Below are positions 5,515-55,871 of a DNA stretch of 64,000 nt, in pieces. The stretch is from Owenia fusiformis (lineage: Eukaryota; Annelida; Polychaeta; Sabellida; Oweniidae): assembly GCA_903813345.2 (NCBI GenBank), contig CAIIXF020000001.1, positions 10,887,598 through 10,951,597 on the forward strand. Reading direction: 5' to 3'. The notes below the pieces were generated by a model, which was not told the origin of the DNA, did no database searches, and was given only the letters and a program-made list of their open reading frames with translations. A program made the translations under genes and the position numbers. Numbering within the stretch: the first letter of the stretch is position 1; each line of letters starts with the position of its first letter.

Positions 5515-7520
5515 ATTCTGATGCAAAATTAATCAGTCGCCTCTCTTAGATCTCCTTTAAGTACTAGAACTTAGTACAAAGTCAACTTAACGGCTTGTAT
5601 CATTTTGAATTGATTTTGCCTTAAACATCTTATATGGGGACCAGTCAATGCTATTTTGCATTTTCATATTTAGCTAAGTATTCTGTACATCTGACAGTAC
5701 ATGTTTTGAAGCTGACCTTTTCACTGAAACTGGTTTTCCATTAAATATGAGTCTCCAAATGATACCTTATTTGCTTTTGATTCCATAAGTTGAATATATT
5801 TCAAGGGTGATAAAATTCTCCATTGTGACTGAGATATTGCATAGACTCACACACTGTACATGTTACGACTGAAAAAGACAATAAACACAGGTGTAATATA
5901 TTATATAATACATGTTTTATTTATTCCTGTTATAATTTATATAATTACATACAAGTTTCACATGTGCCACATGGGAATAAGGTCTGAAATGACAAATAAA
6001 TTACTGTTGGCAAAAATAATGATTGTTATACTAAATTACCAGTACTTATTGATCACCCCTCGTATATTTTTGCTATTTTATAACTACACAATTGGTCAAA
6101 ATAAAAAAAATAGTGTTTTAAATGAGATTTTTTTTAAAATTATGATCATTTAAGTGCCTTCAATTTGCATAAATGGAAAATATTTGAAAATTGATGTGAA
6201 TTCCCCGTTTTTTCCAAGATACCTATTGAGAAACATAGTTTTAAATGATGAACATTTCTATGTGTAAAATCATCTCCCCATATATTTCCCATCAAATAAG
6301 AAATAATATTTAAGAAATTGCCTTCACTGACTAATGGATGGAACTTCATCTGTTGGAATAATCAAAATGTCAATAAGCAAGATTACTCATTCATTCCTGA
6401 AACATTAGTGTGATACATAACATACAGAAATTATATCCTATTATTTATAACACTGAATCTCAAGGCATTGTCATGGTTGTCTTAATTACTGTTACCTCCT
6501 AAGAGTAACTAGGAATCAAATTCATTTCCGGGAATAAGTAATTAATTAAAGTGAGAACACACACCCGAGTCCTTTTTCATATTTCTAGGAAATAATAGAT
6601 GATCTTTAACAAAAGTGGAATTAACAATTTTTCAATTTTCATTTTTTAATTATTGAAAGCCATGCATCATAAAAATAATATGGACATTTATGGCCCATCA
6701 GAATTTGGCTCAATTGTGAGGATAATGTATACATTGTACAATACTTTATGTAGTGTACTGGAATATTTTTATGTCTGATAATCGTTGTCTATGAATTAAT
6801 TTGTCTGCTGTATCCATATTTCACTTTCAAACTTTAAAGAACAAAGTGAGATGTTAACTAATAATTAAAGTCCAAATACTACGAAAAATTTTAAAATGAT
6901 CATCAATCATATGTATGATATAAATAAATGTGCATGACTTGTACAGATGTAACATTTAGATACACATCTGTAATTATAAATTACTGAAATAATTTGTTCA
7001 AAATAACCTCATAGATATTCTCATTTAAACCACATTATTGCTACCATGCTTGTGTAATTCAAACAAATGACACAATTTAATCACCCTATGCAGACAGAGC
7101 CTGTGGGAAATATTGGGTGCGGCGCAAATGAGCGGAGGGTGCGGAGCTAACGGTCATTTTTGAATTTAAAATTGGGATATTTCTGAAACTAAGCCGTTTT
7201 GGGACTTCAAATATACCAAGATATGTGTATTTGACACCAAATATCAATAAAATTGTGAAAATAGTAGTGCAATTCATTTTATAGCGACGCAGTATGCCTT
7301 AAACATTTCCCAGACCTATATATTTTGAGACTATCCTTTTAATACTGCGTCCCCAGCATTCATAAAAAATGGTGTTCAAGATACACTACCCATGCAAATT
7401 ATTTTTGCATCTTGGAAGCCAGGCAGTATCTGTGTGATTTTATAAAAATTCGGAAATGTTCTTCAGATATGAGCCCCTCTAAATATTGGGTGCGGAGCTA
7501 CGTTTATGGAGCTGCTCCGC
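5515..7520. repeat. First copy of a 2006-bp tandem duplication
   Basis: This block repeats immediately at 7521-9526, and I found no difference between the two on reading. It begins at ATTCTGATGCAAAATTAATC and ends in the middle of a palindromic element (GGAGCTGCTCCGC). It contains no credible gene; the 97-residue and 67-residue open frames occur twice only because the block is duplicated. From 7082 onward this copy holds just the left arm of the foldback element that is complete at 9088-9936. Confidence 0.9.
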
Positions 7521-9526
7521 ATTCTGATGCAAAATTAATCAGTCGCCTCTCTTAGATCTCCTTTAAGTACTAGAACTTAGTACAAAGTCAACTTAACGGC
7601 TTGTATCATTTTGAATTGATTTTGCCTTAAACATCTTATATGGGGACCAGTCAATGCTATTTTGCATTTTCATATTTAGCTAAGTATTCTGTACATCTGA
7701 CAGTACATGTTTTGAAGCTGACCTTTTCACTGAAACTGGTTTTCCATTAAATATGAGTCTCCAAATGATACCTTATTTGCTTTTGATTCCATAAGTTGAA
7801 TATATTTCAAGGGTGATAAAATTCTCCATTGTGACTGAGATATTGCATAGACTCACACACTGTACATGTTACGACTGAAAAAGACAATAAACACAGGTGT
7901 AATATATTATATAATACATGTTTTATTTATTCCTGTTATAATTTATATAATTACATACAAGTTTCACATGTGCCACATGGGAATAAGGTCTGAAATGACA
8001 AATAAATTACTGTTGGCAAAAATAATGATTGTTATACTAAATTACCAGTACTTATTGATCACCCCTCGTATATTTTTGCTATTTTATAACTACACAATTG
8101 GTCAAAATAAAAAAAATAGTGTTTTAAATGAGATTTTTTTTAAAATTATGATCATTTAAGTGCCTTCAATTTGCATAAATGGAAAATATTTGAAAATTGA
8201 TGTGAATTCCCCGTTTTTTCCAAGATACCTATTGAGAAACATAGTTTTAAATGATGAACATTTCTATGTGTAAAATCATCTCCCCATATATTTCCCATCA
8301 AATAAGAAATAATATTTAAGAAATTGCCTTCACTGACTAATGGATGGAACTTCATCTGTTGGAATAATCAAAATGTCAATAAGCAAGATTACTCATTCAT
8401 TCCTGAAACATTAGTGTGATACATAACATACAGAAATTATATCCTATTATTTATAACACTGAATCTCAAGGCATTGTCATGGTTGTCTTAATTACTGTTA
8501 CCTCCTAAGAGTAACTAGGAATCAAATTCATTTCCGGGAATAAGTAATTAATTAAAGTGAGAACACACACCCGAGTCCTTTTTCATATTTCTAGGAAATA
8601 ATAGATGATCTTTAACAAAAGTGGAATTAACAATTTTTCAATTTTCATTTTTTAATTATTGAAAGCCATGCATCATAAAAATAATATGGACATTTATGGC
8701 CCATCAGAATTTGGCTCAATTGTGAGGATAATGTATACATTGTACAATACTTTATGTAGTGTACTGGAATATTTTTATGTCTGATAATCGTTGTCTATGA
8801 ATTAATTTGTCTGCTGTATCCATATTTCACTTTCAAACTTTAAAGAACAAAGTGAGATGTTAACTAATAATTAAAGTCCAAATACTACGAAAAATTTTAA
8901 AATGATCATCAATCATATGTATGATATAAATAAATGTGCATGACTTGTACAGATGTAACATTTAGATACACATCTGTAATTATAAATTACTGAAATAATT
9001 TGTTCAAAATAACCTCATAGATATTCTCATTTAAACCACATTATTGCTACCATGCTTGTGTAATTCAAACAAATGACACAATTTAATCACCCTATGCAGA
9101 CAGAGCCTGTGGGAAATATTGGGTGCGGCGCAAATGAGCGGAGGGTGCGGAGCTAACGGTCATTTTTGAATTTAAAATTGGGATATTTCTGAAACTAAGC
9201 CGTTTTGGGACTTCAAATATACCAAGATATGTGTATTTGACACCAAATATCAATAAAATTGTGAAAATAGTAGTGCAATTCATTTTATAGCGACGCAGTA
9301 TGCCTTAAACATTTCCCAGACCTATATATTTTGAGACTATCCTTTTAATACTGCGTCCCCAGCATTCATAAAAAATGGTGTTCAAGATACACTACCCATG
9401 CAAATTATTTTTGCATCTTGGAAGCCAGGCAGTATCTGTGTGATTTTATAAAAATTCGGAAATGTTCTTCAGATATGAGCCCCTCTAAATATTGGGTGCG
9501 GAGCTACGTTTATGGAGCTGCTCCGC
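7521..9526. repeat. Second copy of the 2006-bp tandem duplication
   Basis: This copy starts with the same ATTCTGATGCAAAATT and runs through the same sequence. Here the sequence continues past the hairpin centre into the right arm of the palindromic element. The offset to the first copy is 2006 bp throughout. Identity this complete means a very recent event or an assembly duplication. Confidence 0.9.
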
Positions 9527-9936
9527 ACCCAATATTTAGAGGGGCTCATATCTGAAGAACATTTCCGAATTTTTATAAAATCACACAGATACTGCCTGGC
9601 TTCAAAGATGCAAAAATAATTTGTATAGATAGTGCACCTTGAACACCATTTTTTATGAATGCTGGGGACTCAGTATTAAAAGGATAATTTCAAAATATAT
9701 AGGTCTGGGAAAGGTTTAAGGCACACTGCGTCGCTATAGAATGAATTGCGCTACTATTTTCACAATTGTATTGATATTTGGTGTCAAATACACATATCTT
9801 GGTATATTTGAAGTCCCAAAACGGCTTAGTTTCAGAAATATCCCAAATTTAAATTCAAAAATAACCGTTAGCTCCGCACCCTCCGCTCATTTGCTCCGCA
9901 CCCAATATTTCCCACAGGCTCTGTCTGCATAGGGTG
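9088..9936. mobile_element. Palindromic foldback element, complete copy 1
   Basis: The two arms of about 415-420 bp are nearly perfect inverted copies of one another. The left end is CACCCTATGCAGACAGAGCC and the right end is its mirror, ending GCATAGGGTG, with a loop of about 15 bases near 9510 (TACGTTTATGG). It is flanked by TTAAT on both sides, a 5-bp target duplication. The 63-residue open frames in each arm are mirror products of the same DNA and are not genes. A second complete copy lies at 38212-39061. Confidence 0.85.
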
Positions 9937-11180: not shown

Positions 11181-14100
11181 CTATAATAATGGCTGCTGTT
11201 GTTGCTGTTGCTGAACATACATCTGTTGTTGAGGAATAGTTGAAGGAATAAAGTTCTGAATCTGTTGTTGTGGTGCTTGCGTGTTTGTTAAATGAGGGGC
11301 CATTTCTTGCTGGTTACTATAGGTAGAGATTGTGGAGGCGGGAGTATAGCCGTTGCTGGGCATGGATGTATTCCTGGAAATAGTGGAAACATGCTTATTA
11401 TATAATTCATATGACAACTTCACTGGAGCTGAGAATATTTTTAAACGAAATTAGTTAGTTTGCTGGTATTTCATTGTTCAACACAGAAGCAAGAATTTAA
11501 TTAAAGTATTCAATGACTTGCTGTGTGCCATTCTTGTTTAAAGTTTTTAGCTAGAGTTTTGAGACATACATAACAAAATTTTACAAATAATATTTCATAG
11601 ATTTGAATACAAGGTCATCTTTTCCAGTTTATTGTTCAACATAGCATATCTATCTGTTCTGAATGGCCAGAAAGCAAAAAATTAAAAAAATTGTGAATAT
11701 TGTAAATATTGATATAAAATAACTCACTCTGTATACTGTGGTTGATTAGTTGGTGTAGGTGAATAACTTTGTTGTGCTGGTGCCATATGACCTTGAACCA
11801 TGGGTTGACCTTGAGCCATAGGTTGACCTTGGGTTATGGGTTGACCTTGACCCATACCGGCCTGGTTTTCTACAGGTCCATGCAGCGAGTTCATCTGAGG
11901 CTGGCCCATATTTGGGACCTGACCCTGGCCAGGGAGAAATTGCTGACCATTATACATCTACAAAAAACAAAAATTATATAATTTGTTGCTCACAATATTC
12001 AATATTAGGGGTTTCAACCAGAACAACGGCAACGCCAAAGCGTAGCGAATCCCATCGAACAGCCATGGATGGCATTTTTACAAACAAAGGATATAGCAAA
12101 AATGGCAGCCATTTTTCAAAATGGCCACCTTCTACCAAAAGTGCCATTAGACAGTGTGCCGTGCTTATAGTATTCACATACCAAATATAAACAAAATCAT
12201 TCCACTACTTTTCGAGTTATAGTAAAATATGTTAAAATGGCGGCCATTTTGAAAAATGACCGCCTTCTACCAAAAGTGTCATTAGACAGTGTGCCATGCT
12301 TACAGTATTCACATACCAAATATGAACAAAATCGCTTCACTACTTTTCGAGTTATAGTAAAATACGTTAAAATGGCGGCCATTTTTCAAATTTTTTTTCA
12401 AAATGGCCACCTTCTACCAAAAGTGTCATAGGACAGTGTGTCATGCTTATAGTATTCACATACCAAATATGAACAAAATCGCTCCACTACTTTTCGAGTA
12501 ATAGTAAAATACATTAAAATGGCAGCCATTTTGAAAAATGGCGGCCATGGCGGCCATTTTTCAAAATGGCCACCTTCTACTGAAAGTGTCTTTAGACAGT
12601 GTGCAATGTTTATAGTATTCACATACCAAATATGAACAAAACCGCTCCACTACTTTTCGAGTTACAGCAAAAATCGTAAAATAACGAGTAAAGACCGCCA
12701 TTTTTCAAGATGGCTGCCATGTGCTTCTTTAATATCTACATTTTTAGCTTTATTAATGTCCTATATAATTTTTTTACATCTAAAACATATTTCTATTACA
12801 GTTTTACATATTGCACCTAAATTACTGTAAATTCGGCACTAAAATGGCCGCCATTTTGAAATGAGCGGCCATTTTGAAAATCGGCTCTCGAGCAGAACTT
12901 CTACCCCCATAGGGTATATGTGTACAAAATATGAACAAAATCGGGCAGACGGTATTTGAGTTATTGCCCGGACGGACGGACGGACGGACGTACGGAAGGA
13001 CGGACGGAGGCGTTCCCTATATCCCTCCGAACTTCGTTCGATGGGATAATTAACTCTTTCAATGAGAATGGTTCCAATGGTTTTAGGTATTTTCAAAATA
13101 TTGATAATATGTACTGACACCTTGACATTTTCATTTATTTCAGCTTCATTTGTGAAGGATTTGTATTCTGTATTTGCAATCCCATCAGAATAAATTGGGA
13201 CAACTTTTACATCTGCATGACAAATACAGCATAGGCCTTTTAAAATGTCTAAGTCAAAATGCCCTGTTCTACTCGGACTACCATTTATAAAAGTACCATA
13301 TTCTCTCAAATTAGCGCACAGTTCCATTAAACACATGCAATTTTTATGATGAATATGGTCTCAAGAAAACACAAAGTGAATACATTAGTTTTTATTATTT
13401 ACACATCAATTGATGATTATAATGCAGAGAAAGAAATACAGGAACTGTAAAGTTAACCTTAGTGGTAACAACTAAAAAGATTAATGGCGGTAATTTTTCT
13501 TAATTTTGTATATGTGGCCTTATTGGAATATCTCAATGTCTTACCCCTTTAAGTTTCAATTTGGGAAGAGCACTGTGGGCTCATTAGAGAGAATACGGTA
13601 AATTAGATGTATTGTACACCAGAAAATTGACAATAGGTGATTCATACCTGGTTTGGAATAGGTTGTTGTTGCATGCCCATATTTGGATATCCACCGGGTG
13701 GTAGTGACATCTTTTGTGCTGATGGTAAGTAAAGACCCTCCTTCATTAAATTATTGTACATTTGTAGAGCATCTATCACTTGTTTGTTAATGTCACTTAA
13801 TCTGGCATGACTCCTGCAAAAATACATGAATTTTAATTACAAAGAAAAAAACACAACTTGTATTTCTCTCATACTTTATTAGAAAACCAAGAAATAACCA
13901 GAAATATGGTTTGGTAATGAAATAGAGTCTTTTATCATGTATGCAAAATCAAAAACATACATGTATTTTACATGATTTAAGTCAGGGAGGCATTGGAGGC
14001 AATGTTCTCTATGTAGGTAACTGCCATTTACAAAGTACAGCCATTTGTCAACTAATTTTCTTACATGATAAATATATATGCCTGGCTGTACTCTCATAAC

Positions 14101-17100
14101 ATCATGCTATCGCAAATACCAGAACATACATTACACCACAGCTAAATGTTGCCTTAAATAATGAAACCATTAAACATATTTTTTGATTTAAATATTTCAT
14201 AGAAAACAAGGAATTTTTACCTATCAATTTTTTCTAGCTCTTGGTCTATGAGGGGTCCCATTGCCTTGCATTCACTCTCAAGCCCCAACATCTCTGGGGT
14301 GTCTGGTCTAGTCTCTCCTGTAGGGTCGGCATTCTGAATCATCTCAAGGCAGTCATCTATCCGGCTCTACAAATAATGATTGGTTAAGTCAGAATTAATT
14401 AGTGTCCTAATAATGTACTCTGCAAATATACTGTTATCAGAAATTATCAGTGATCATCCCCAAACATGTCACATCATACAACTCTCAAGTACATACCTCG
14501 TCAATCCTAACTGTCTCAGGTAGCCTCTCAACCGTCTTCACTTCAACCTCCTCATTAAACTGAACAGATTTCTTCTCCTTTACTGAAACAATAGAGTTCT
14601 TGGTTTGGAATAATTACATTACATAACAGAACATTAATGACTACAAGGTGAATTATGAACAAGGCATTAACATGCAAAATGTCACCATTTGTAACAGAAG
14701 TGAACACCAACTCCTGAATGTCATCCACAAAAAAGTTGGAGACTATAACAATAATTAAACTTGTGGTGGTGACATAATAACCATTGATGACTCATTCATT
14801 GAAATTTCAAAAACAATAAATTATATACCAATAGAATTACAAAGAACATGCAATTTTTATTTGATTATTTATTTATTTATTTTATTACGAAATAATTACA
14901 TGCAAATTGATGTTATTTTGTTATCTTCTTGTGAAAATAGTTGATGATTGTAGTTTCTGAGTTTTCCAATCCTTTTTAATCAACATAGTTGTTCTGGTTT
15001 TCAAGTATGCAGCTAAGTCCACCTTTGTGGGCTATTTCACTTCCAGTTTACATTAATGAGTAACATATTTTATGTATAACATTTATTGATTATATTATTT
15101 TTGTCGGCAGGATTTACTTAAAAAATCCTAATTTAGCTATACAGGGTGTCCGGAAAGTAAAGATACAAATGCTCTAATTTCAATAGATTTACCTGTTGTG
15201 AGATGAAATTGCTACAGATTGTAGAATGACATTGTAACAATTTATCCTGCAAATATCATGACAAATAGTTTCAAAATAAAAAAGTTATGGTTGTTATGGT
15301 GACAGGAGTCGCGGGTATGTGGAGCAGCGTTACAATTATGTTTTATAAATCTTTTCTCCAGTTCATATCATCTTGACACTTTGTCATCTGTTGCTATTAT
15401 ATATCAAATTATGTACCGCAGCAGCAAAAGGATTAGTACTGTAACATTATTTAGTCATTTGGCATTACTTCTGGTATCTGGTATTATGTATTTCCCACCA
15501 TTATCTTAACATTCTTGGTGCATTTTGACTGGTGATTCCAAGATCTGACAAAACCGCCGCTGCCCATCTCTAGGATTGCTGCTAACATTGGTTTCCAGCC
15601 GAATCTCATTTTCATGTTGAACTTCTAAGAAATATTGCTTTAAGATATTCATTAATGTAGAAGTCCAACGGGACATTATCAGACCAAATATTGACCATTG
15701 TACAAAAAGGTTCAATGTTAAGACATTCATTTGTGAAATTTGTTTTCTTTGCTTTGTGAATTGGTGCATTTACTGTGGAGGTAGACTGTTGACTCTTCTA
15801 TTAATCCTGGGACCCTTTTCCTAAGCACATATACTTTTTCTTTGATTATACTGGTGACATTACATAGTTCTGATATGTATCAATGATATCATTAAACTAA
15901 AGAGAATACTATGGCAGCAAGAATACAATATTGAACAAAACAAAACATTGATAGGAAATACCAAAATAAGCACTGTTTCAAATGGTTATATTTTAGCAAT
16001 TTATCGCAATTTAGTGATATCCTGGAACTGCTCCACATACCCCTCACCACCGTAACCATGACAACCGTAACTTTAACACGTTTAGACTGTATGTTATAAA
16101 ATTTGGCAGATGTATTGTAATATGGTTCCTCTACAATCTGTAGCAATTTCATTACGAGAAACCTAAATCTCTTAAAATTAGAGTGTTTGTATCTTTACTT
16201 TCCGGACACCCTATATGTTGACATGTTATCATGCTGCAAGAGTCAAATAAATTCCTTATAATACCTGGTTCCTCTGGTTCAGCAGTTAGATCTGCTGTTA
16301 CAAAGTTGGCGGGAAATAGTCCTTCTCCACGGAAGTTTGAGCCTTTCCACCAGTTGACATCAGAGTCATCTATAACACCTATTATCTCACCAGCTTTAAA
16401 TGTTAATTCATTGTCTTCAGCTGCCTCAAAATCATAAATTGCACGAACCTGAAAAATATAATAACTTGAAATTGGCAAATCCACGAGTAGCAAATCACAA
16501 CGAACACTATATTCATGAATCTATATATGTCACAATGTAATATTTAACATCTACTGTACCCTTGATTAAATTAAATTATTGACAAATATTAAAAGACAAA
16601 ATCATGAACTGCATTGCAAAAACCTGAAAATAAAGTAATGAAAGACATCAGAGATTGATGTGTAGCCAATAACGATATCAGTATGAACATGAAAACGAGT
16701 GTATAAACTGAATGTCTCTCAAATGAAATTTTAAAATGGCAAGTAAATTAACTATCTGCATATATGTATCCATAATTAAAAACATATCAAACTCATCATA
16801 CTCTTTCCATGATCAATTTCACATCAAAATGAGCAAAATACAAGATTTCTAGGATTTCTGAAAACATTTATAGAGATGTTGAAAAGGTATCTTTAAACAC
16901 CTCATGATAAATAACTAAAACTTTACTTTCTTGTCTAAAACCAAACTTGTATTTCTTAGTTCTTATATTGCACATTTGTAATTCACTGTTACTACTACAG
17001 TGTCTCAATTCAACCCCCAAGTCCATATAATGACCTTTGGTCATGCATAAATAAATGTTTCACTCAACACATGAATAGAAATTAAACACTCAGGGTTCTT

Positions 17101-20100
17101 ATGCAATTAAGTGATGCATGAAACTCAAAGGGGTGAACCATTACATCATCACATCTTCCCCCTTTCTTTTGACTGTTCTTAATTTAGCAACATCTTTCAT
17201 TAAAACAGTCACACAAATCTATATAACTACTTGTAAAACTTAAAGTCAAAAACTTATGATTAAAATCCATATGTCACTTAAAATATATCACTTTAATTAA
17301 TGTAGTCTTGGTCCATCATACACAGGGAATAGATTAATTATCCATTTACAGTAGTTGTTGTAAGGTTTGGATTAGGTAATCCTGTCTAGGTTAAAGAGTT
17401 GGCGATCCTTTCTTCTTTAGAAATGGCTATCTTTGTCTTGTGGTCGGATCGGTCGGTATCCATTCTTCAGATTCCATGATCCTATCTTTGCACTTGAATA
17501 CTTGGTCTTATTCTTATATATGTAGAAAATCCTTTTTTGTGTAGTAGCACAATACGATTGCCGAATCCTTGCGATCAAACGTTGATCACTTTCTGGGATC
17601 AAAGTTATCTTCAACTTCAAATCCACCCTGAAGAATCATATGATGCTATAGTAAAACCTGTAGATATCCTCTTAAAGTGACGACTTTTCGTGCACCCGGA
17701 AACACAGCGTTAAACATGCTTAACTGCTTTTCTTTACAGTGTTCGCTTCAGCCTTAAATCATAGACTCTGTTTCACAAAATTGCACCAACATGTCAGTTT
17801 CGTCGACATTGCTGATATTCACCTTGCAATTTCTTCGATCGTTCATGCATTTCTCAAATAGTTCATTTTCGTACATATATTACTCACACTGATCTTTGCG
17901 TTCAGATCATGTGTTCGTTCCTTCATCGTTTCTAGGGTTCTTCTGGTTTGAGTCATCAGTGTTATCACTTGAGTGTTCATTTGACTTGAGATGCATTTGT
18001 TATTTGCATGGGCGTTACATCTTCCAGTAGGCCTTCATCAATTCTGTCAAAATCACATCCTCTAAAGTTAATTTCACTGGAAAGCGTATAGTTCGTTTCT
18101 TTTTCGCTGCCACCATGTAGAGATGTTGAAAAGGTATCTTTAAACACCTCATGATAAATAACTAAAACTTTACTTTCTTGTCTAAAACCAAACTTGTATT
18201 TCTTAGTTCTTATATTGCACATTTGTAATTCACTGTTACTACTACAGTGTCTCAATTCAACCCCCAAGTCCATATAATGACCTTTGGTCATGCATAAATA
18301 AATGTTTCACTCAACACATGAATAGAAATTAAACACTCAGGGTTCTTATGCAATTAAGTGATGCATGAAACTCAAAGGGGTGAACCATTACATCATCACA
18401 GTAGACAAGTTTTCTTTTAATCTTGTTCAATATATATTATGGCATTATAAAAACAGATCTCAAAACAGTTACTTACCACCCTTCTTTCTTTTTTCTCTGG
18501 AGTACTGTTAGAAGAAACTGTTGATATTGCACTGGCACCTCCCCCTCCCATACTTGGGTATAAACTTGATGTTGTTGTGGTTTTAGTTTTGCTGGACTGT
18601 TCTTCCTTCAAAGACAATGCTATGGCTGAAATGAAGTAAAATCATTAAATAACTTCTAGAAATAGGATATCTTCTCGATCTCTATTTCAAAAATGTTCAA
18701 AACAAAATGCAGTTTTTGAATTTTTATTTTTACACAAGCTTTTCTTGTATCATGTAGAAACTGTTTTTGTTGCTAACATAGAATTTCTTATTGATTCCTT
18801 AATTATTCCATCTGATGCAGAAGTACACCACAACGTAACATAAGAAGTGAGATTTTGAACAGAAATATACTTAGAAATTTATCCAAATGATTTCCTCAGA
18901 TATATAAAACTTTTTTATGTTGTCATTATTCTCAGATTCTGCTTCTTCTACAATACCTTTTGCAATATCATCTTCAAGAATTCCTTTTGCAATATTATCT
19001 TCTACAATACCTTTTGCAATATCATCTTCTACAATACCTTTTGCAATATCATCTTCTACAATACCTTTTGCAATATCATATTCTACGATACCTTTTGCAA
19101 TTTCATCTTCTACAATACCTTTTGCAATATCATCTTCTACAATACCTTTTGCAATATCATATTCTACGATACCTTTTGCAATTTCATCTTCTACAATACC
19201 TTTTGCAATATCATCTTCTACAATACCTTTTGCAATATCATCTTCTACAATACCTTTTGCAATGTCTTCTTCTACAATACCTTTTGCAATATCATATTCT
19301 ACAATACCTTTTGCAATATCAACTTCTACAATACCTTTTGCAATATCTTCCTCTACAATACCTTTTGCAATATCATCTTCTACAATACCTTTTGCAATAT
19401 CATCTTCTACAATACCTTTTGCAATGTCTTCTTCTACAATACCTTTTGCAATATCATATTCTACAATACCTTTTGCAATATCATCTTCTACAATACCTTT
19501 TGCAATATCTTCCTCTACAATACCTTTTGCAATATCATCTTCTACTATACCTTTTGCAATATCATCTTCTTCTTGCTGACTGTTGACCACATTAGGGTCT
19601 TTTGACAAAGTCTCCACTTTCGTACTGGTCTAAAACGTAATAAAATTCTACAATTAAGATAGATAAGTAGAAAAACATCTTGGGTTCGTTACAGATAAAG
19701 CTTAAAGTCCCACTAGGAGTAACTTAAAGTACTGTAATAACAGGTTACAGAGGTTTAACACAACCTTCATGTTGATATAAGACAGTTACACTCGGTGACT
19801 CAGTCTAGCACATTCTACTTGTATTGATGAAAAATCATGTGATTGCTACTTTTGGACATAACAAATTAGTAAACTAATCTTAATCGTTTAATCTTAAAAC
19901 GTCTTATAAGTATACACTTTTGAAAATAAAGTAATATGATAGCTTGGTATTTAAATTATATGAACTAAAATGTAAAGTTTGACTACACAAGTCTTTAGTT
20001 TTAAACAATTAGTATCATGACAGTTGCACAAAAATCATTCATACCTTTGTATCAGATGTACTAAAATCATATCCCTCCTTTTTAAGACTGTTATACAATG

Positions 20101-23100
20101 TTGGAATGAGACTGAAATTAAAAATGCAAAAGCAGTTATGGATAAATGTTTATAAACTTTGCTTCAAAGAGAGCAAATTTTTTAGTATTGGACAGATGGA
20201 ACTTTTTGTCGAATGAATTCTTTGAAATACTGTATATGGGATTGTACAGATTGAATTCAAAATATCTGGTAACACCTCTCTGAATCAATCCATAACTTTA
20301 CAAGTTTTGAACTTCTAAATCGATACATTATAATCCACCAAAATACATAAAGTCATTTTTCCATATGATCGATCAATAGATTAACTAAGAAAATGTAAGT
20401 CATAATTTGACAAAACTCAATGGTACCCTGATATGCCTTTTTAACAAGTGAAAATATAAGATAGTAAACACTGAACTTACTGAAGCGAGGCATCTGATTT
20501 GAATTCATTTTCTGCCCATTTCTTTACAAGTTGTGCTAGTTTCTCTGCTACCCTTGGATGTGCCTACAAAATGGTAGAACATTGTGATCAAAACTGACAA
20601 TATCGCTTCATGGTTTTGGGAGCTTTCCTTTTTCATCACAGGATCTTAGCAAGTGGTCAAAAAAGGACTACACTAGAATTAAAATTTCAAAGCTGAAATT
20701 GCTGAATAAAAATGTAGATATTGAAAGTAGGTCTCTGGACCAATACTATGATCATTTCACAAAAATGTTGATAGCCTGCACCTTTGTTGGACAACCAAGT
20801 AACTTTGGAAAACAAGACACACAGTGATAAATATCGCACTTTGAAGAGCAAACTGGCCACCATGCAATTTACCCAGCATGGCCAAAACCTAATCAGACCT
20901 TGGCACTAGTCTGCTCTTGCATCTGTAAACATTTCAAGTTGACAAGGTTAGCGGTTTTCCTGCAATTTTGATGAGAAGAATTTATTTGTAGTCTTGAACT
21001 TTGGGAAAATTTAGATAACATTGTTTGTGACCTAATTTGATGACCTTCGACCTTGAAAATTTCACTTTTTCAGACCTCAGTAGGTGTTTTGTAATTAGCT
21101 GACCTAAATTTAAATCCAAAATATCAATTTAGAAAATCAAATTTTTGATCTTTTCAAGGCCACTGAAGGTCAACGAAAGGTCAAATCTGAAATCTAAGGT
21201 CAGATTTGAACTTCTGAGAACTTGTAGATGTTTTTAAAAAAAAATTTGGTCAATTTGGAGCAAGTTGAAAAATTCAAAATGGCCGCCAAATTGAAAAATT
21301 CAAAATGGCCATCATGTAATTCAGCCAGCATATCCAAAACCCAATCAGATCTTGGCAATAGTCTGCTCTTGCATCTGTAAAAATTTCAAGTTGAACGGAT
21401 AAGTGGTTTTCCTGGAATTTTGATGACAAGATTTGTTGAAAAATTCAAAATGGCCGCCACATAGTTTACCCAGCATGCCCTTAACCTAATCAGATCTTGG
21501 TACTAGTCTGCTCTTGCATCTGTAAAAATTTCAAGTTGAACAGGTAAGCAGTTACTCTGGAAATTTGATGACAAGATTTGGTTTATGTCCCGCCCGCCCG
21601 CCCGCACGCCCGCACACCCAAACGCCCGCCCAACAGCACAAGACGACGACGATATAGCACTTTTTCAAAGTGCGATAAAAATTTGGTAGAAAATAATTTG
21701 TTTTATCATAGACATAAAAACAGAATCCAACCCCTACTTTTTTCAAAATGCACTCCTAGTGAGAGTACTGGACAGCTTAATCAACAGAGCGAGGAAAATA
21801 TTGTGAACATCTCTTTTTCAATTCAAAATTTCAAACTCAATAACCAGTCAAGTTAAAAGGCATGATTTAAGAATATAACAACAAGCACTTTCAAATAGTT
21901 AATCTTTCTGATTATGAGTTCTTTGTAATAATTGTCAAGAGTTCGGGACACGTTGATTAAGGTCAATTTATTCACTTATCAGCTAGTTATATTGACCCTT
22001 CACCACACTAACATGATCAGCCCTTTCAGTGAAGTAATGTATGTTTATACACATGCAGAGTTAAAATGGATATTTTTTGTTTTGGAAAGAAGAGGAAGAT
22101 AATATTTGAAAGAAGCTCAATTCACTTACAAGATTATAAAACAAAATACAGCATGAAACTTTGATTTTATTAAATAGAATGATGATAATTTATCCAAGGG
22201 TTGCTCAGTACTTACCTTACCACCTAATAAAACTCTGACTTCAGATATAAAATCTCTAGATGCCATTTCTAAATGAAATTGGTGTCCACAGTTGCTAACA
22301 CAGGCATCAAGCACCTAAAATTATATATGTATGAATTATACATAAATTTTGGGAATTTTTTACTTTTCTCTACATGTATTTGATATCTATGATCACCATT
22401 TCAAACTTCAGTTCATAATTGTTTTGAAAAAGTAATCATCACCATTGATTGGTTCTGTCAAATCTGACAAGTCTGACCCTGAAAAAGTGCAGCTATAGCA
22501 AAAAAGCTTTATATCTCTTATTGACTCTTTGATTAAATTACAGAATGTATAACTAAAGGTATAATAACTGCCCTCCCCAGGATTTTCTATCTGGAGATTT
22601 TGTCATTTTCTTGAGTGCAACATTTTAGGATCTTGTAGTTTTTGTGCTACATTTCACGAGTTCATATTTCTATTGTAACATATTTTAAGGCTCATTGAAT
22701 TAATAAAGGAGCATTTCTGGTGTTTTGAAACACATGGAGGTGCTGCACCTCAGATATTTCAATGTGGCAAACAGGACTCACTGTTAGTGACTGCATGGCA
22801 ACATGTGGTACTCTGTGGTTCATTCTTTTAATAATTGAAGTCAAACAATCTTTTGGTCTGGAAAAAAACAATAGATACATTATTGTACATCAAGTCATGC
22901 AGATTTTTTCAATTTGATATGCGAAGTTTACATTTGTGTAACAAGCTGGCTACTTTTTATGTCACACCAATAAGACTATAATTTTACAGATAGATAAATA
23001 CAAAGGCTAGAGGAAACAAAACAACTTTATATGGTCTTATTGCTGCAAATTACTGCATTAATATGTTTGGATTTTTCACAAAATATATGAATGACAAAAC

Positions 23101-26100
23101 ATAAAAAAGGCATCAACATGCAAAATGTCACTACTTGCCATTTGTTACAGATGCCGAATGCCAGCCACTTTTGGTGGTAATATAAAGATTAATCCATTAT
23201 TAAGAAAACTGCTACCAGCACATTAAAATCCTTTACATATTTTCTTTTTACATCTTTGTTGCTTTAAATAAAGAATTTATACATACCCATTTGAATTTCT
23301 GCCTACTTTGTCACATAATTCCATTATTAATGCCCAGTTTTCTGTCGTATTGAGCTCACTTGTGGCTTTTTCTGAAAAACAGATATGAAGATTTGAACTA
23401 ATTGGAATAACACTGAAGGAATTTACATGATCAATTGGGGGCAAATAGATTTTTAACAAAGTGTAAGAAATTCATATTTCCACTTTCAATTTGATGCACT
23501 GTATGGAACATAAATGCTGGAATAATGTTATTGAATTCTGATATAAAAATGTACAAATACAAATGAGCAACTTTAAAGAGTAGAAAATCCTAATAAACAT
23601 AATATGTTTCAATAATTTTTACTGGCTCCCTAGACTCCAAGGGTGATTTTAGGACTTTCAGCATGATGCCTACTCATAGATCTTGACTAGCCTTGCCTAA
23701 GTCGGTATTTCTTGATCTTCAATTGTAGTAATATAAAGAAACAAGACACTTTGTGAACAATATAACACCCTTGAAACCTGCAGACAAAATAGCCACCTTT
23801 ACATTTACCCAGAATTCCCGAAAACGAATCGGTTATAAACTTCAATATATGTAGAAACATTCCTGAAAATTTCAGATGAATCCCCCAAATGGTTTCACTG
23901 GAAACCTGTAGAATGGTTACTACCGACAGACTGACCTACCACCCACCCACCAGACAAACTGTATACAAATAACATTATAGCCCCCAAGGGTGATATAAAA
24001 AAATACACTGACTTAGGCAAGGCCAATTATTGACAGTGCCAAAGAATTTTGTAATAATTTTACTGCATCAAAAATTCTTGATTCGGGTAGTGATTTTTAC
24101 ATCGCATTGTAACAATTCAATCAGGAAGTGAAATGAGCCTTTGATGAACATAGCTTGCATCAATTGATACCTTTTAAGAATAAAGAGGTTTCACACAAAT
24201 TATAGCTAAAATGTATCCGTAATTGCATCTTATTTTAATTCAACTGATACATGTAAATCTGGTGAAACCTCACTACTATGATATCAAAGATGGATATGCA
24301 TTGAACATTTTGTAATTGAAAGTAAGTGGCTGATTTCAGTATCTGTTTAAGGTTTCATGACTTTAAGGGATTAACTTGAACTTTAAGGCTGAGAGTACAA
24401 AAGAGAGAACAGCCTTAGAACAAGGAAAATCCTTATTTTGAATATATATATTTGATTTTCCTGCAGTCTTATTGTCCCACAATCATTTTCTGAAGGCTAA
24501 GCCATTTGACTTTCAATTTTCTTATTTAGTAAAATTAAGAAGTGGCTCTGAACAACAAAGGCCAGGGTATAAATCATAGATACTAGTATTCCGTAATTCC
24601 GCGGCGTGGACGGAATTTGACAAAAAATTTTTGCAGAATCCCTGATTTTCATGAAAATCCCGTGGAATTACCAGAATTTCCAGAAATTACATATTTTACG
24701 ATCTCCTACCTTTGCGGGGTATTTGAAGAGTGTCTGTTTATGTCCAACAATCAATCATTATTGAGTACAAGTACGATTTTACCGTGAAATTCAACATTCT
24801 ATCACGTTTAAATTCGCTAAAGCGAGTTCGCTAATGACGCGCAGTTCTTACCTAGAAAGTAGCTGACTTCCGTTTCCGTTTTTCATCGTTTTAAAAGATT
24901 TCAGAATTTGGACTTTTTTTGAAAATTTGTGCAGAATTTCAATTTTCTCCTTGCAGAATTTGCTTTTTTTCTTGCAGAATTTTTTGCAGAATTTTGAACT
25001 AGTATCTGTGATAAATCAGTGGCATTTTCACATACAATCTTGACAAACGTATGCACCTGTCCACTTTTTGATTCTAAAATCAAAACAAACATCTTAGCAG
25101 GTATCAGGCAAAGTATAAACTACCCTCTCTGTGATGAACACGTACTTAGAGTAAACATATTCTTGTAGCTTCATAATAGGTGTTCACTATACACAGGTTT
25201 TACTGCATTTGGAAAATAGAGTCATCAAATGTGCTAGACTAATGAAAGCAATCATAGACTGACAATAGTTATAGCAGGTTTAATTGCTACATTATGAAGC
25301 ATTCTGACAAAATAGCTTCTTGCTAGCGCTAGGTTTCATTTCAACTTTTGGTCCTTTTCCTTTGGCACCTGTGCTTAGATATTTTGAAATGCAATCCTTT
25401 GAAATTTTTGCTACAATGCAATTTAACCCAACTGTATAACAGGTACCATTGTGTTAAGTCATCCTTGTAATTGCAGCGATGAAACCTCAGATTTTTATCA
25501 TAGAATAAAGAATGAGATAAGATTTTCATACCTACCTATCTCAAACCAAATTTGGAAATCAAAATTGTTCCTTAATTTAACCATTGGCCTGAGGTAGACT
25601 TCATGATTGATTCTTGATGAACTTCATCTAATCAAGACAAATATCATCACATTTGTCCAGTAGTGACCCTGGACATCTAAGGCTTAGAAAATCAGTCTAT
25701 ATAACAGTCAGTGGGTAGTTATGATTTGGGGCAAGACAAAATCATGATCTATACGAACTTCTCAAAGAAAGTAAAGATCATAATTTGGACTTGCCCCAAA
25801 TAATAACTGTACATTGACTGTGCTATATAAGATATTTCAAAACAGAATGAGAAATTGAATCAATGGCACCTAAAGTAAACTTACATGTACCTGGTTAAGA
25901 AGGTTAAGTACAATGGTTCGAAAATCAAACTATTCACAAAGGTAAACGAGAACAGTCTATTCAAAGAGTGCAAATGAGAAATTTTACAAGTAAATTTTCT
26001 ATTAATTACAATACAAACCTATTCCATGACATATGCTAATACCCCTAATTTGGAAAAATGGGCAAGTCCAAAAACAACAGGATAACCTGAATCCCTCTAG

Positions 26101-29100
26101 GTCAACTGACCTAACACCCCTTTATATGCTATATCTTCATAATTGTACGCAGTAAAACTTAAAAATACTGCGGGGAGGCCGGGTGGGCCTATGGTCATGG
26201 AATAGGTTTGTATTGTAATTAATAGAAAATTTACTTGTAAAATTTCTCAATTACATACAATCCAACCTATTCCATGACATATGCTGAATTCAAAGTAAAG
26301 GAGGTGGGACCCCGATTAAGCCAAAAGTATAATAAATATATATACACAAGTACTTATAATAAAAAGTAAATTCATATTACCAAAAAGTACTCTGATCTCA
26401 CAAACCATAGTGATCCCTAGTAGAACAACCACCGTCATCCATTGTAAGGCAGAGGCTGTGACACATCTGTATAACTGTTATTGTCCTATCATAGTGAGCA
26501 GTCTTAGCCATCTAAGGGTAATGACCAACTCCTATGAATAGAGACTGGTTAACCAAGGATGGGCCGTTTAACCAAACGAGGCAACCTTGCAGTTCTTCAA
26601 GGGTCCAGGTCACAAGCTAGTTGAGTTGAACCCTTCTGCAAAACAGTTCAGCTACACATCTGGGAGACTGTATGTCCTTTCACAGTGAGTATCCTTACCC
26701 ATCTAAGGGTTGCGAATAACTCCTATGAATAGAACTGGTTAGCCAAGGATGGGCCGTTTAACCAAACGAGGCAACCTTGTAGTTCTTCAAAGGTCCAGGT
26801 CACAAGCTGGTTGAGTTGAACCCTTCTGCAAAACAGTTCCACTTACACAAGAACTGGATAGACAAGGAATGGCTGTGTACAAGATAAAGACAAACCAAGT
26901 CCACCCAGTGTTACTTCCAATCACCAGACAACAGTGCAATACTGAGTTGGTAACAAGTTGCAGAGTACTTAAAGTTGTATATAGTTCTTGAAGCTGTAGA
27001 CCCACCTGCAGCTTGGATGAGATATACATGAGTTAATCCAAGCCATTGTTGTAGTTCTTGTCAGTGTAGACAAAGGCATCATCCTTTCATCCATTGGAAT
27101 TCTAGGAAACTGCCAAATAAATCAACTACCATGAGTCACAGCACAGGGTCCTAAAGGAACCAGTCTTGCATACAAAGTGAGGTGGTACACACTACAGCTT
27201 GTCTTGTATCTGCTGCGAGGTTGGTACAGTCACCAGATAACTACAAGGATAAGTCAAACCATCTTCTTTGTAGTACCAATTAGTATTCATCATAGAACAG
27301 ATCAACCATTACTGCTGACCTGGGCAAGAAGAGACATCTTCCATCTGGCCAAAACAAGTTGTTCAATGGACAAACTAGTGCATCTAGACAGTCTATCCAT
27401 CTGTATAAAACTGTAACACAGCTACCCTAGTAGACACAGTGGCACATCAAGCACAAAGTAGAACAGCATACAGGTCCATACTTATCTATGAAGGATTAGT
27501 ATGGAGATGAATCTAAAGGTGGTTGGAAACAAGCTTGCATTTGTTGGTAAACTTGTTAGACATCTTTAAGAAGGTGAGGATATCACTGATATGATTGTCT
27601 ATAGTGGCCATAGCATAACGGAAAGTATTCTACTGCCATCAAAGCACTGCTAAGTGTTGTTCCCACGAAGAGCTTGGCTTGGAATGCAACCTTCAATTGT
27701 TGTATTCGGCATTGTAGTTGAAAACTATTGGATTGTGGTTAGAACATCCATCTGTCCAGGTTGTAAACAGCAAACATCATAGCTAGTGCTGCATATTGAC
27801 AGAATACTGCAGAAGAATTCAGAACCTCACTGGATCAACAAAATTCTTGGCCTGGAACCAAAAACTTTTAAATGTTCTTCACAGGCTTGCAAAAGGCAGA
27901 CTAGTGGTATCTTCAATGGAAAGTACATCTATCTGTCTATAAGAGTACAAGTATAACAGTATTGAACGTAGATACTGCTACAAAAGGAAGCACTACTAGT
28001 ATAGTATGAGAGTATAGTAGTGCTAGATCCACCAAAATCTGTGTCCAAAAACGTAACCTTTAAATTCATCCAGGTTTGTAGTTGGCATCACTGGTTGACA
28101 AGAATAGTCCGCTTTTTCTCCCGGGTCTGTCTAAAGCTACCAAGAGCATACATCATGGATGTAGGTGTATAGGAACACTACTGCAGTATGTAGTAAGGTA
28201 GTGCTGGATCCACAAAGTTCTTGACTTGGAGCATAACCTTTGTAGATCAAACTTGGCTTGGAGTTGAAACTCTAGTATCAACAGCGTAAACATCAGGCCC
28301 GCATGGTCATCGAAGTACTACTGCATGTGTCTACCAGTCAAATGTTGGATCCATACAATGCTTGGTCCAAGAACATTACTTTTCAGTAGTCTTAAGCCAA
28401 ACTTGCAGTTGCTCAAGGGAAAAAACTATATCATAAAAAACATGATAAGTTTATCCAATTGGTTAAAACTTCCAGCCTTTTACTAGTTAAATAGTAGTAT
28501 TAGTACTATGAACATGAACTAGTAATAATATAAAAACCAAATGAAGTCTGGACTGAAGTGAAACCTTAAATCAATCCAGGCCCAAAAAGCCCAAGATTAA
28601 TTCCACAAATAAGGTGACTTGTAGTTTCTCAATGGAAAAAACAATATCATAAAACATGATTAGTTTATCCAATTGGTTAAATCTACCAGCCTGTTCTAGT
28701 TAAGTAGAAGTATACGTACTATGAACATGAACTAATAATAAAATAAGACCAAAAGGAGTCTGGAACTGGAGTGATACCTGAAGGCAATCCAGGCCCAAAG
28801 ACCACAAAGATGAATTCCACAATAAAAGTGACTTGCAGTTTCTCAGGGGAAAAAACTATATCCAAAAAAAAATGGTCAGTTTATCCAAGTGGTTAAAACT
28901 ACCAGCCTTTTACTAGTTAAATAGTAGTATTAGTACTATGAACATGAACTAGTAAAAAATATAAGACCAAATGAAGTCTGGGACTGGAGTGAAACCGTAA
29001 AGCAATCCAGGCCCGAAAACCACAAAGGCAACTTTCACAATCAAAGGGATGTGTTTTCAATATTAGATGAAAACCACCTTGTTTGAAAATAATAACCAAT

Positions 29101-31511
29101 CCACGAATGAATAAGTACTATGGTTATGAATAAAAACGAAAATGAAAGAAAACAGGCTCCAGATAATAAAAATGAGAGCCCATCACTTAGAAGCATGTTT
29201 AAACACAAGATTCATGGTATAAAGAACCTGAACCGATGTGTAGAATCCTCTCTTCTACTGTTGATTGAATAATATAAAAATATATTTCACTCAATAAACT
29301 CATGATATTATCAATTTAAGACAAGATTCAAACATGTGTGAAGGTACACCGCTTATAAAGAAACATATAGTTACTTAGAAAATATGCATGAAACCAATCA
29401 ATACCAGAAAAGGAGTGATTGATAAGTAGCTGTTAAAGAGTATGAAGCATATTTTAAGGTGAGCCACTCCTTAAAAAAACTGTGGTTAGGGTAAAACTAA
29501 CCAATAGATTCTAAGACACAGAGTGGACCTGAGATATGTAGATAAACAATAATGTAGATCTCCATAAAGAGACACAAAAGTACAAACAAAACAAACAAAA
29601 AAAACTTAGTAAAAATTATCCTTGTAAAATTAAAAATAATGAAACAAGATTTGAAAACCAAGATATCCAAAATGATTGTAGAACAAACATCCTATGCCCT
29701 GGTATAAATAAAGAATGAATACGTTGTGACCAGAAGGCATTAATGAGCCATTCAATGTATCTTAAAGTAAGGCTTCTGTAAACTAACTAATTTTACACGA
29801 ATGTAAAATTAGACCTAAAAATAGTTGATGAATAAGAAATACAAAAGTAAAAGCTGAGTGTATCTGTAAGCAGAAAACAAACAGAACATAGAAAACAAGT
29901 GATGTGAAGAGTAGCAAGTGAATGAAACGTTCACATCTCTTAAAATGTCAAAAAACTTTCACATCTCTTAAAATGTCAAAAAACTAATATTTTAAATTAA
30001 TTGACTGCTAAACCACACAATTCCATAAAGTGCTGCAACCAAGAACCCTACAAAGGGTGTAAAGTGATTGTGAATAAAGATGAGAATTAACTACATCTAT
30101 GAACAATGCAGATTCAATCCAACTGAAAAATATGTTATCTAGTCAAGCTAGTTACTAAACTAGAAACAAAGTTGAGACTAATTCTCGAGTAATAAAAAGT
30201 AAGACAAAGAAACAAGAAAGATCAGCAAAAAGATCTTTCAATACTAATAATTTACACTCATCAATAAGTAGAGTTCTTAGAAAAACTCCATCTATTCATA
30301 ATCCCTGAACACAACATTTCAAAAAAAGAAAACACTGTTCAGTGGATAAGCACAGCTTGAATGTAATGATTACTGAGTGAAAAACTAAGGAATAGTCATT
30401 CAAAACAATGAACTCCAACAAAGCTACTGTAGGTGCATGATAAAGGGGAATAACCTTATGAACCTAGAAGGCCATCATTACATAATATACTACACAATAG
30501 TATAGTCATGAACTCAAAGGATTAGAACCCTTGGGCTAGTAAAAGTATACTAGTATAGGGTTAAAGAGTAAAGGTCCCTTATAGAAAGGTTCAAGGTATG
30601 AGTGAAAAACCTTTACAAAAAAGATAATACAAGCCAGTAGGGGTCAAATAAAGTTCAACTGGGTCTGAACTTATTGTCCCAAAGACAAGCTAGGCTAACC
30701 TAAAGTTGACTGTTAGCTAAGCGTGTAGCTTGAAAATAAAATCCATGGAAGGATTACCTAAAAACTGACCTGTTTCTAGTGTTAGAAGTACACTAAAATA
30801 CAACCACAAATGAGCTCACTGCACTGAAGAATGACTTGTGACTCTGTCCAAGTACCTTCTGCTGCTGAGGAGGCCCTGCTGAGGTATAGTCTTGAAGATC
30901 TACCATGGGATGGTGGGCACCAACTCCCTCAGTAAACTGCTACTCAAGTTGTGCATGCTTCTAACAAGCACCTTGCTGTCATCTGTGCCAGTTCAGATTG
31001 TAGATTTTCCGACTTCTGTAGACTATCACGTTGACTAGGTTCCCGTAACAAGCTGGTAACCCCTAGTCCTGCATATATCTGCCATCAATTTACCAATTAT
31101 CTAAGAAACTTCTAGCAGATAGAGTAAAAAACTGGACTCTAAAATCTTTCCACTTTTCCATACATAGGCAAGTACAATTATGAAGATATAGCATATAAAG
31201 GGGTGTTAGGTCAGTTGACCTAGAGGGATTCAGGTTATCCTGTTGTTTTTGGACTTGCCCATTTTTCCAAATTAGGGGTATTAGCATATGTCATGGAATA
31301 GGTTGGATTGTATGTAATTGAATCATATGATCATGATGAAAATAAAAAATTCGGCGAAAATAAAAAATACACAGCTTTCAAACGTATATACCAGCTACAT
31401 TTCAACAATATTGTGACTTTAACTAGGGTCTTTCAAAGCTTTAGATATTAATTTATAGTTATCCTTACCTACATCACCGTCAAACGGTGTAGAACTAGAA
31501 AACAGAGGCAT
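11181..31511 (-). CDS. STAM: STAM, ESCRT-0 signal-transducing adaptor, 14 exons
   Basis: STAM pairs with HRS in ESCRT-0 and sorts ubiquitinated cargo on early endosomes. Rebuilt exons: 31511-31469, 23371-23287, 22857-22782, 22314-22216, 20563-20481, 20111-20045, 19629-(variable end), 18625-18477, 16448-16265, 14582-14497, 14366-14221, 13813-13648, 11957-11728, 11373-11181. All junctions are GT-AG and all phases agree. Exons 1-6 give the VHS domain ([20 protein letters not shown]-type core, SRDFISEVR). Exon 7 ends inside the UIM and exon 8 completes it ([10 protein letters not shown]). Exon 9 is the SH3 domain ([24 protein letters not shown]). Exons 10-12 form the coiled GAT-like core ([22 protein letters not shown]). 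Exons 13-14 are Gln/Pro-rich and end QQQPLL, as vertebrate STAM does. With the first donor in exon 7 the protein has 561 residues (human STAM is about 540); with the last it has 759. The 8-kb first intron is filled with transposons. Confidence 0.95.
12048..13050. repeat. ATGGCGGCCAT tandem-repeat element in STAM intron 12
   Basis: At least four degenerate units of about 135-153 bp follow one another. Each joins a palindromic core (AAAATGGCGGCCATTTT) to the phrase CCAAAAGTGTCATTAGACAG and then CATACCAAATATGAACAAAA. The right end holds a GGACGGACGGACGG run and the inverted phrase TTCGTTCGATGGGATAA. A matching CCCATCGAAC occurs at the left end. The same head phrase (CGAACGAAGTTYGAGGG) and the same core recur at 45290-46200 and 58590-59650, so this is one dispersed family. 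It has no coding capacity. Confidence 0.75.
13045..13336 (-). other. Unrecognised open frame beside the repeat, STAM intron 12
   Basis: About 95 residues of ordinary-looking protein ([47 protein letters not shown]) precede the repeat-derived tail of the same frame. The composition is less biased than that of the repeats, so this may be a fragment of a captured or processed gene. I do not recognise a family, and neither a start context nor splice partners were found. Confidence 0.2.
15142..16213. mobile_element. Tc1/mariner-type element, decayed, STAM intron 9
   Basis: The ends read CAGGGTGTCCGGAAAGTAAA and its inverse, with one terminal difference, and are flanked by TA. The inverted similarity extends inward to the phrase ATTGCTACAGATTGTAGA. 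At 1072 bp it is close to the length of a small mariner. A minus-strand open frame at 15506-15769 ([15 protein letters not shown]) might be a worn transposase piece, but I cannot see the catalytic D,D residues. Its terminus is related to but distinct from that of the element at 3371-4013. Confidence 0.75.
16869..18400 (-). mobile_element. Small non-autonomous LTR element (TRIM-like), STAM intron 8
   Basis: Two direct repeats of 285 bp (16869-17153 and 18116-18400) bound about 960 bp. In minus-strand reading each LTR opens TGTGATGATG. A possible primer-binding site (TGGTGGCAGCG) follows the 5' LTR directly, and a purine tract (AAAGAAAGGGGGAAGA) precedes the 3' LTR. The internal part is too short for a full gag-pol set and shows no reverse transcriptase. 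The two LTRs have equal length and look almost identical, which points to a young insertion. No target-site duplication was found. It is a non-functional relic that depends on another element's enzymes. Confidence 0.8.
18946..19566 (-). repeat. 27-bp minisatellite spanning the STAM exon-7 splice donor
   Basis: Twenty-three tandem units each encode a 9-residue word of the form DDIAKGIVE (first residues vary: DD, ED, YD, DE, VD, DN). The unit is GATGATATTGCAAAAG followed by GTATTGTAGAA, so it contains the sequence AAAG|GTATTG, a candidate 5' splice site. Exon 8 (18625) begins CC and needs a phase-1 donor ending in G, which each unit supplies. Joining gives [12 protein letters not shown], an intact UIM. 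Unit 22 reads GCAAAAGGAATTC and lacks the GT; the other 22 keep it. Past the last unit the frame meets a stop before any plausible donor of the right phase, so a donor inside the array has to be used. Confidence 0.9.
20780..21690. repeat. Dispersed tandem repeat with GCCCGCCC tract, STAM intron 4
   Basis: About three degenerate units carry the phrases AAATTCAAAATGGCCGCCA, ACCCAGCATG, TCTGCTCTTGCATCTGTAAA and TTTCAAGTTGA. The block ends in a CCCGCCCGCCCGCACGCCC tract and then ACGACGATATAGCACTTTTT. It resembles, in plan, the GGACGGACGG-bearing family elsewhere in the window: short tandem units plus a terminal simple-repeat tract. It is not coding. Confidence 0.6.
23687..24028. repeat. Foldback element in STAM intron 1
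   Basis: The outer phrase TAGCCTTGCCTAAGTC is mirrored by GACTTAGGCAAGGCCA. An inner pair, TATAACACCCTTG and CAAGGGTGATATA, frames a body with a CTACCACCCACCCACCAGAC tract. The nested inverted ends suggest one element inside another, or a single element with compound ends. No gene is present. Confidence 0.5.
25976..26248. mobile_element. MITE, 273 bp, STAM intron 1
   Basis: Arms of about 55 bp are inverted copies of one another, beginning GAGAAATTTTACAAGTAAAT and including ACAAACCTATTCCATGAC. Its left 150 bp (through TTCATAATTGTAC) match the right-hand end of the neighbouring 5-kb element in inverse orientation, so it looks like a deletion derivative of that family. It abuts the larger element directly. 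Confidence 0.75.
26249..31319. mobile_element. 5.07-kb non-coding element with terminal inverted repeats, STAM intron 1
   Basis: The left end begins AATTACATACAATCCAACCT and continues ATTCCATGACATATGCT; the right end is the exact inverse over about 38 bp. The right end shares a further ~110 bp with the adjacent 273-bp MITE. The interior has its own direct repeats: a ~113-bp phrase containing GGATGGGCCGTTTAACCAAA occurs twice (about 26538 and 26726), and one containing AGTTTATCCAATTGGTTAAA recurs three times at ~210-bp spacing near 28440-28920. No frame above about 80 residues and no transposase motif is seen. The element could be an oversized non-autonomous transposon or an old autonomous one whose gene has decayed. 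Confidence 0.65.
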
Positions 31512-55870: not shown

Positions 55871-55871
55871 A

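Follow-up and report, generated by a model that had tools for sequence, protein, structure and literature searches.

A 27-bp minisatellite with repeated candidate 5' splice sites at the end of a STAM exon in Owenia fusiformis

In the annelid Owenia fusiformis, a minisatellite of 27-bp units lies across the end of exon 7 of STAM, and almost every unit of the array carries a candidate donor for the splice that completes the ubiquitin-interacting motif (UIM). On balance, and with modest confidence, we favour a translated array in which one late donor dominates and earlier donors give minor short forms. The window referred to below is the whole stretch of DNA that was analysed, 64 kb in length and with a GC content of 34%; neither an Rfam match at the gathering threshold nor a tRNA was found within it.

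The STAM gene and its divided ubiquitin-interacting motif

The minus-strand gene is STAM, and its predicted coding region (11181..31511) is complete in 14 exons. The identification, which the initial annotation had already made, is borne out by matches to the VHS domain, UIM, SH3 domain and ESCRT-0 core in Pfam and PDB. The N-terminal VHS domain scored 126.4 bits in Pfam and, in an early hand-spliced model, matched PDB chains named STAM (1x5b, E 4.1e-52; 3ldz, E 3.2e-51). C-terminal to the UIM, an SH3 domain scored 58.9 bits (Pfam SH3_1) and matched the STAM SH3 chains 1x2q, 2l0a and 1uj0. The ESCRT-0 core was matched by chain S (STAM1) of PDB 3f1i (E 2.1e-20) and by no other PDB chain at E up to 0.001. 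A single UIM lies between VHS and SH3. The spliced product of exons 7 and 8 aligns there with EDEDIAKAIELSLQEQ of PDB 5ixf, and the end of exon 7 does fall within the UIM, as had been proposed. The Pfam score of this UIM is at threshold: the full 561-residue protein reaches 20.5 bits where the cut-off is 21, a partial model 21.4 bits and a 48-residue fragment 24.8 bits. For the longest form, scored over its first 494 residues, the value drops to 17.3 bits, which weighs against the explanation favoured here.

Exons 1 to 6 of the gene lie at 31511-31469, 23371-23287, 22857-22782, 22314-22216, 20563-20481 and 20111-20045, and exons 8 to 14 at 18625-18477, 16448-16265, 14582-14497, 14366-14221, 13813-13648, 11957-11728 and 11373-11181, all on the minus strand. 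At the exact coordinates of this 14-exon model, both GT and AG are present at all 12 introns other than intron 7. Exon 7 opens at the acceptor TTTTAG/ACC at 19629 (a slash marks the splice junction here and below). With the donor of unit 23 it would take its longest form, 673 nt (18957..19629), and with that of unit 1 its shortest array form, 79 nt (19551-19629); intron 7 would measure 331 nt with the last array donor versus 925 nt with the first. Exon 8 (18477..18625) encodes the second half of the UIM and was aligned with PDB 5ixf. Its start, CC ATA GCA at 18625, was seen where the initial annotation had placed it, behind an acceptor rich in pyrimidines (11 of 16 positions), and the junction G/CC ATA GCA reads Ala-Ile-Ala. 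The leave-one-out score of this acceptor, 0.04, is the second lowest of the gene's 13 (range -0.93 to 9.75). Skipping of exon 7 would shift the frame and bring a stop after residue 152, and was rejected as a reading.

Repeats are also found elsewhere in the gene. Exon 13 holds a second, smaller coding array (11788-11855) of 18-bp units encoding words of the QGQPMA type, which is wholly exonic. Intron 8 contains two identical direct repeats of 283 bp (16871-17153 and 18118-18400), about 1.2 kb apart, which resemble the termini of a short LTR-type element. In intron 4 (20909-21523, minus strand) there are three copies of a repeat containing ACAGATGCAAGAGCAGAC, for which no match was found in collections of plasmids, prokaryotic contigs and viral contigs.

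Structure of the array

The minisatellite (18946..19566, minus strand) has 23 units with the consensus GATGATATTGCAAAAG/GTATTGTAGAA, which encodes the word DDIAKGIVE. Every one of the 23 units is exactly 27 bp long, with no length change. TRF reports a single 27-bp array at 18944-19570 (627 bp, 23.2 copies, 92% matches, 0% indels); the 627 bp correspond to the 23 units and a further 6 bp, AGAAGA, a sequence that both opens and closes the array. Eighteen exact matches to the unit core GATATTGCAAAAGG were found on the minus strand and none on the plus strand, 18 being the number of units that hold the core. Counting unit by unit in the one open frame upheld the earlier figure of 23 in-frame units: this frame runs for 252 codons, from 19629 up to a TAA whose last base is 18871, and spans the whole array, while the remaining two sense frames have many stops across it. 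On the antisense strand, no stop interrupts any of the three frames within the array, which has no significance on its own. Unit 22 (18973..18999) is the sole unit with no donor; it reads AAG/GAATTC and encodes DNIAKGILE. Past the array, a tail (18871..18945) adds 24 further open codons before the TAA, the end of the read-through product.

Larger blocks can be recognised within the array. Units 2-7 equal units 8-13 (19216..19539) save for one difference, unit 10 versus unit 4, and the longest exact run at a lag of 162 bp (six units) is 132 bp, from 19483. Units 14-17 match units 17-20 (19022..19241); at a lag of 81 bp (three units) the sequence is identical over 139 bp, from 19241. Internal exact runs of this kind would fit an assembly error in the copy number or in part of the array. 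An exact tandem duplication elsewhere in the window points the same way: 5515-7521 and 7521-9527 stand head to tail with 100% identity over 2007 bp (among the matches listed, of at least 150 bp), and because of it a false duplication in the assembly is possible. That duplication is either genuine, a mobile element having been duplicated in tandem very recently, or an artefact of the assembly; part of the 2007-bp repeat recurs at 38209-39066, with about 98% identity, among the matches listed. For the array itself, however, an assembly error is very improbable, since 12 distinct changes are distributed among its units in the mosaic manner of a genuine minisatellite (unit 10, for example, departs from unit 4), and every unit keeps the 27-bp length and the frame.

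Candidate donors and their predicted products

The sequence AAAAG/GT is present in 22 of the 23 units, as AAG/GTATTG in 19, AAG/GTATCG in two and AAG/GTATAG in one. The first donor of the array, in unit 1 (19550..19551, exon end 19551), is TGCAAAAG/GTATAGTA and the last, in unit 23 (18956..18957, exon end 18957), is TGCAAAAG/GTATTGTA. Joining each of the 22 GT junctions to exon 8 gave a length divisible by 3 and no internal stops. The predicted proteins range from 561 to 759 residues, and translation of the junctions reproduced both of these previously given figures exactly. The UIM is rebuilt in each of them, in one sequence form, with a variant form after two of the units. A range of 0 to 22 repeats had been claimed; counts of 0-20 and 22 are indeed possible, and 21 never arises because unit 22 has no GT. 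Read-through of exon 7 would instead yield a product of 403 aa with VHS and repeats and without a complete UIM, SH3 or core.

The UIM motif is known for its core Ala, and its consensus core combines Ala with Ser. Here the codon for the core Ala is created by the splice (G/CC), and the unspliced units encode Gly at that place. Repeat words as additional UIMs were rejected, since no Pfam UIM match was obtained with the whole array ORF (E up to 1) or with a stretch holding units 1-5 (E up to 10). Where the motif has its core Ala and Ser, the repeat word has Gly and a residue that is acidic or of another kind; the initial annotation, too, had held that the repeat word by itself is no UIM. An AlphaFold2 model of the exon-7 ORF alone had a mean pLDDT of 35, too low to inform on any regular structure of the repeat protein.

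The strength of the donors was assessed with a gene profile made from STAM's 12 other donors, those being scored leave-one-out, and with a human donor profile. With the gene profile, 20 of the 22 array donors scored 1.91 bits and the other two 0.58; eight of the 12 other STAM donors lie above 1.91, and those of introns 3, 9, 11 and 13 lie below it. With the human profile the array donors fall between -0.53 and 0.43; of the other STAM donors, those of introns 9 and 11 alone score within this range or below it. Ranked among all 6836 GTs of the window, the array donors fall at percentiles 88-92 (human profile) and 91-95 (gene profile). Pairing of nine bases with U1 gave -5.7 kcal/mol for each GT-bearing array donor, versus -5.1 to -10.1 for the other donors. 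The array donors have no G at +5, and the intron 9 donor, CAG/GTATTA, is of the same type. Folding of exon 7 RNA was more stable than that of shuffled sequences (z -2.95, 20 shuffles), which lends no support to freely open donors; its centroid is nearly unpaired, however, and the two observations point in different directions.

It had also been stated that no other usable donor precedes the stop of the frame. No better one was found, but two further phase-1 GTs are present in exon 7 upstream of the array, CCA/GTACGA (exon end 19626) and ACA/GTCAGC (exon end 19581). Both score lower than the array donors (best 0.15) and their use would delete the first half of the UIM, and neither was retained as the real donor. 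A further site, TAA/GTATAT (exon end 18871, just past the in-frame stop), scores 1.16 with the gene profile, which is above two of the array donors, and -5.77 with the human profile; its use leaves the stop in the message. The array donors are modest, yet they are the best in-frame sites within exon 7, and very probably the true exon-7 donor is one of them.

Which donors are used, and is the array translated?

The sequence equally allows a single dominant donor, whether the first or the last. If the unit-1 donor were used, the other 22 units would be a harmless minisatellite of intron 7 and STAM would be an ordinary protein of 561 residues. The 79-nt exon so formed would fall inside the 43-230 nt range of the other STAM coding exons, and the unit-1 junction gave the top UIM score of six, 24.8 versus 17.9-21.2 bits, in fragments of 34-57 residues that are not strictly comparable. 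The donor score of unit 1 is, however, like that of most other array donors, and the frame is unbroken through 23 units. The changes within the array also speak against this reading, which we consider rather unlikely. Eight of the 12 distinct changes between units are at third codon positions (P 0.019; P = 0.0088 and 0.020 by two alternative ways of counting). Six of the 12 are synonymous, with P between 0.024 and 0.064 according to the transition bias assumed; read in the two remaining frames, whose expectations differ, the same changes would be synonymous in 0 of 12 and 1 of 12 cases. The longest unvarying run in the unit is 11 bp, ATTGCAAAAGG, on the exon side and leading into the donor (P 0.028). 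These tests overlap and draw on 12 changes only. In these small numbers, the pattern leans towards a translated array over a plain intron, and we hold it somewhat probable that the array is mostly translated.

Use of many donors at comparable rates would produce a broad ladder of isoforms in nine-residue steps between VHS and UIM. This overlaps with the preferred explanation, which has one dominant late donor. Nineteen donors share one nine-base sequence, and every array donor is in frame and modest, as a ladder would have it. Being identical, the nineteen can be discriminated by position and context alone, and as a rule position lets one site prevail among several equal ones. One study, by its title, is said to concern SF2 activating proximal splice sites. 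A broad ladder is possible but doubtful; whether two or more donors exceed 5% usage we regard as an even call.

The presence of AAAAG/GT in each of 22 units also suggests paired splice sites, with blocks of k x 27 nt being removed as small introns, as in intron gain by tandem duplication. When the 22 array AGs were tested as acceptors, they scored -11.5 to -14.1 versus -0.93 to 9.75 for the 13 real ones, and the best of them reached the 34th percentile of the AGs of the window. Pyrimidines occupy 4-6 of 16 positions before them (in the three units looked at) against 9-13 in real acceptors. Internal mini-introns are thus highly improbable, because the array AGs are poor acceptors.

Proposed explanation

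For the origin of the array, we infer a one-copy ancestor in which AGAAGA flanked the donor of exon 7. A segment reaching from the end of exon 7 into the start of intron 7 would have been tandemly duplicated between these short direct repeats at its two ends, probably by slippage or unequal exchange, the slip copying 16 exon and 11 intron bases. Later growth, partly by blocks of three and six units, may have led to the minisatellite of 23 units. With a unit of 27 bp, a multiple of 3, and no stop in frame, each copy would be a nine-residue word, DDIAKGIVE, and in 22 of 23 cases also a 5' splice site, AAAAG/GTAT. With coding word and donor in one unit, U1 snRNP could therefore set the exon end at any of the 22. 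The splice would always join G to CC, which would make the core Ala and restore the UIM, while the unspliced units with their Gly would be linker.

Purine-rich repeats can have an enhancer role. In the explanation with a dominant late donor, the array would be at least partly translated. The donor of unit 23 or 21 would be preferred, both for its nearness to the acceptor and for the greater amount of purine-rich repeat that precedes it, and the third-position bias also speaks for late donors; use of earlier donors would yield shorter forms in minor amounts. Between VHS and UIM, the two ubiquitin binders of STAM, the acidic spacer would then be longer, at up to 198 residues. More tentatively, and on present grounds unlikely, the 22-donor array could yield graded STAM isoforms whose acidic VHS-UIM spacer varies in nine-residue steps, with repeat copy number and splicing conditions tuning which ubiquitin chains or cargo ESCRT-0 holds.

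Other features of the window

Some 0.5 kb upstream of the STAM start, at 31984-32060, lies a GTGCC-type repeat of 5 bp and 15 bp; a plus-strand ORF of 130 aa around it had no Pfam match at E up to 1. Two tandem arrays, at 46688-47113 and 53752-54563, have a related unit of about 55 bp that matches in both orientations. At 55779-58190 (plus strand) there is a single-exon ORF of the Toll-like receptor type with leucine-rich repeats and TIR, 803 aa from stop to stop.

Comparison with known systems

No report of such an array in STAM was found in searches of the open-licence literature; the three papers that came up closest to the subject of STAM, minisatellites and splicing together deal, by title, with plant or crop markers (two) and gene editing (one). 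The repeat unit had no match among viral contigs, and a STAM peptide pattern matched 2 and 164 stretches in viral contigs and 194 in prokaryotic contigs, none of them confirmed relatives; animals were outside the scope of these collections. In other genes, repeats with splice sites have been described. In 1995 Turri, Cuin and Porter reportedly described, to go by the title, an interferon-induced transcript, that of human IFI6 (6-16, G1P3), in which a minisatellite provides multiple splice donors. IFI6 and STAM are alike in having a tandem minisatellite with donor-bearing units at an exon end, 22 of 23 units in STAM. They differ in that IFI6 is an interferon-induced gene with a repeat unit of 12 bp, whereas STAM is a conserved endosomal adaptor with units of 27 bp and 22 donors. 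According to the relevant passage of one paper, downstream repeat units of IFI6 serve as donors and three mRNA species with different isoforms result; the 130-residue form is called predominant there and two downstream units give the others (PMC4526556). This predominance speaks for the use of the unit-1 donor, suggesting that an early donor may dominate in STAM as well. Use of multiple donors has been reported for IFI6, whereas the STAM donors are candidates. A minisatellite supplying multiple donors is already published, and the STAM array is a larger example.

Fission yeasts are described as having 24-bp AGGT repeats with introns lying across copies (PMC4974935). As far as that description goes, these are like the STAM array in being short exonic repeats, a multiple of 3 in length, with an AGGT in the unit that serves the spliceosome; they differ in that the introns lie across copies, whereas the STAM acceptor is that of the next exon and the array AGs are poor acceptors. 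Human segmental duplications contain variable internal tandem repeats at exon-intron boundaries (PMC2812944), and there, in the part of the account concerned, boundary minisatellites shift exon versus intron status much as in STAM. Their units are of 30 bp, with four repeats on average, in recent paralogues, and arrays of 20-odd donors do not figure in that part of the account. Tandem 5' splice sites likewise place similar competing donors at one exon end, but the extensions described are of three to six nucleotides, unlike the STAM repeat array (PMC2423196).

The STAM array offers a natural competition test, in which 19 donors identical over nine bases are set at 27-nt steps before one acceptor and every outcome is in frame. 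It also indicates how a minisatellite can extend over the end of an exon within a conserved domain and leave the domain unbroken: an added unit maintains the frame and is able to supply a donor of its own. What is special in STAM is that the array is located between two ubiquitin-binding modules and that the split codon makes the essential core Ala of a ubiquitin-binding helix, an Ala created by the splice.
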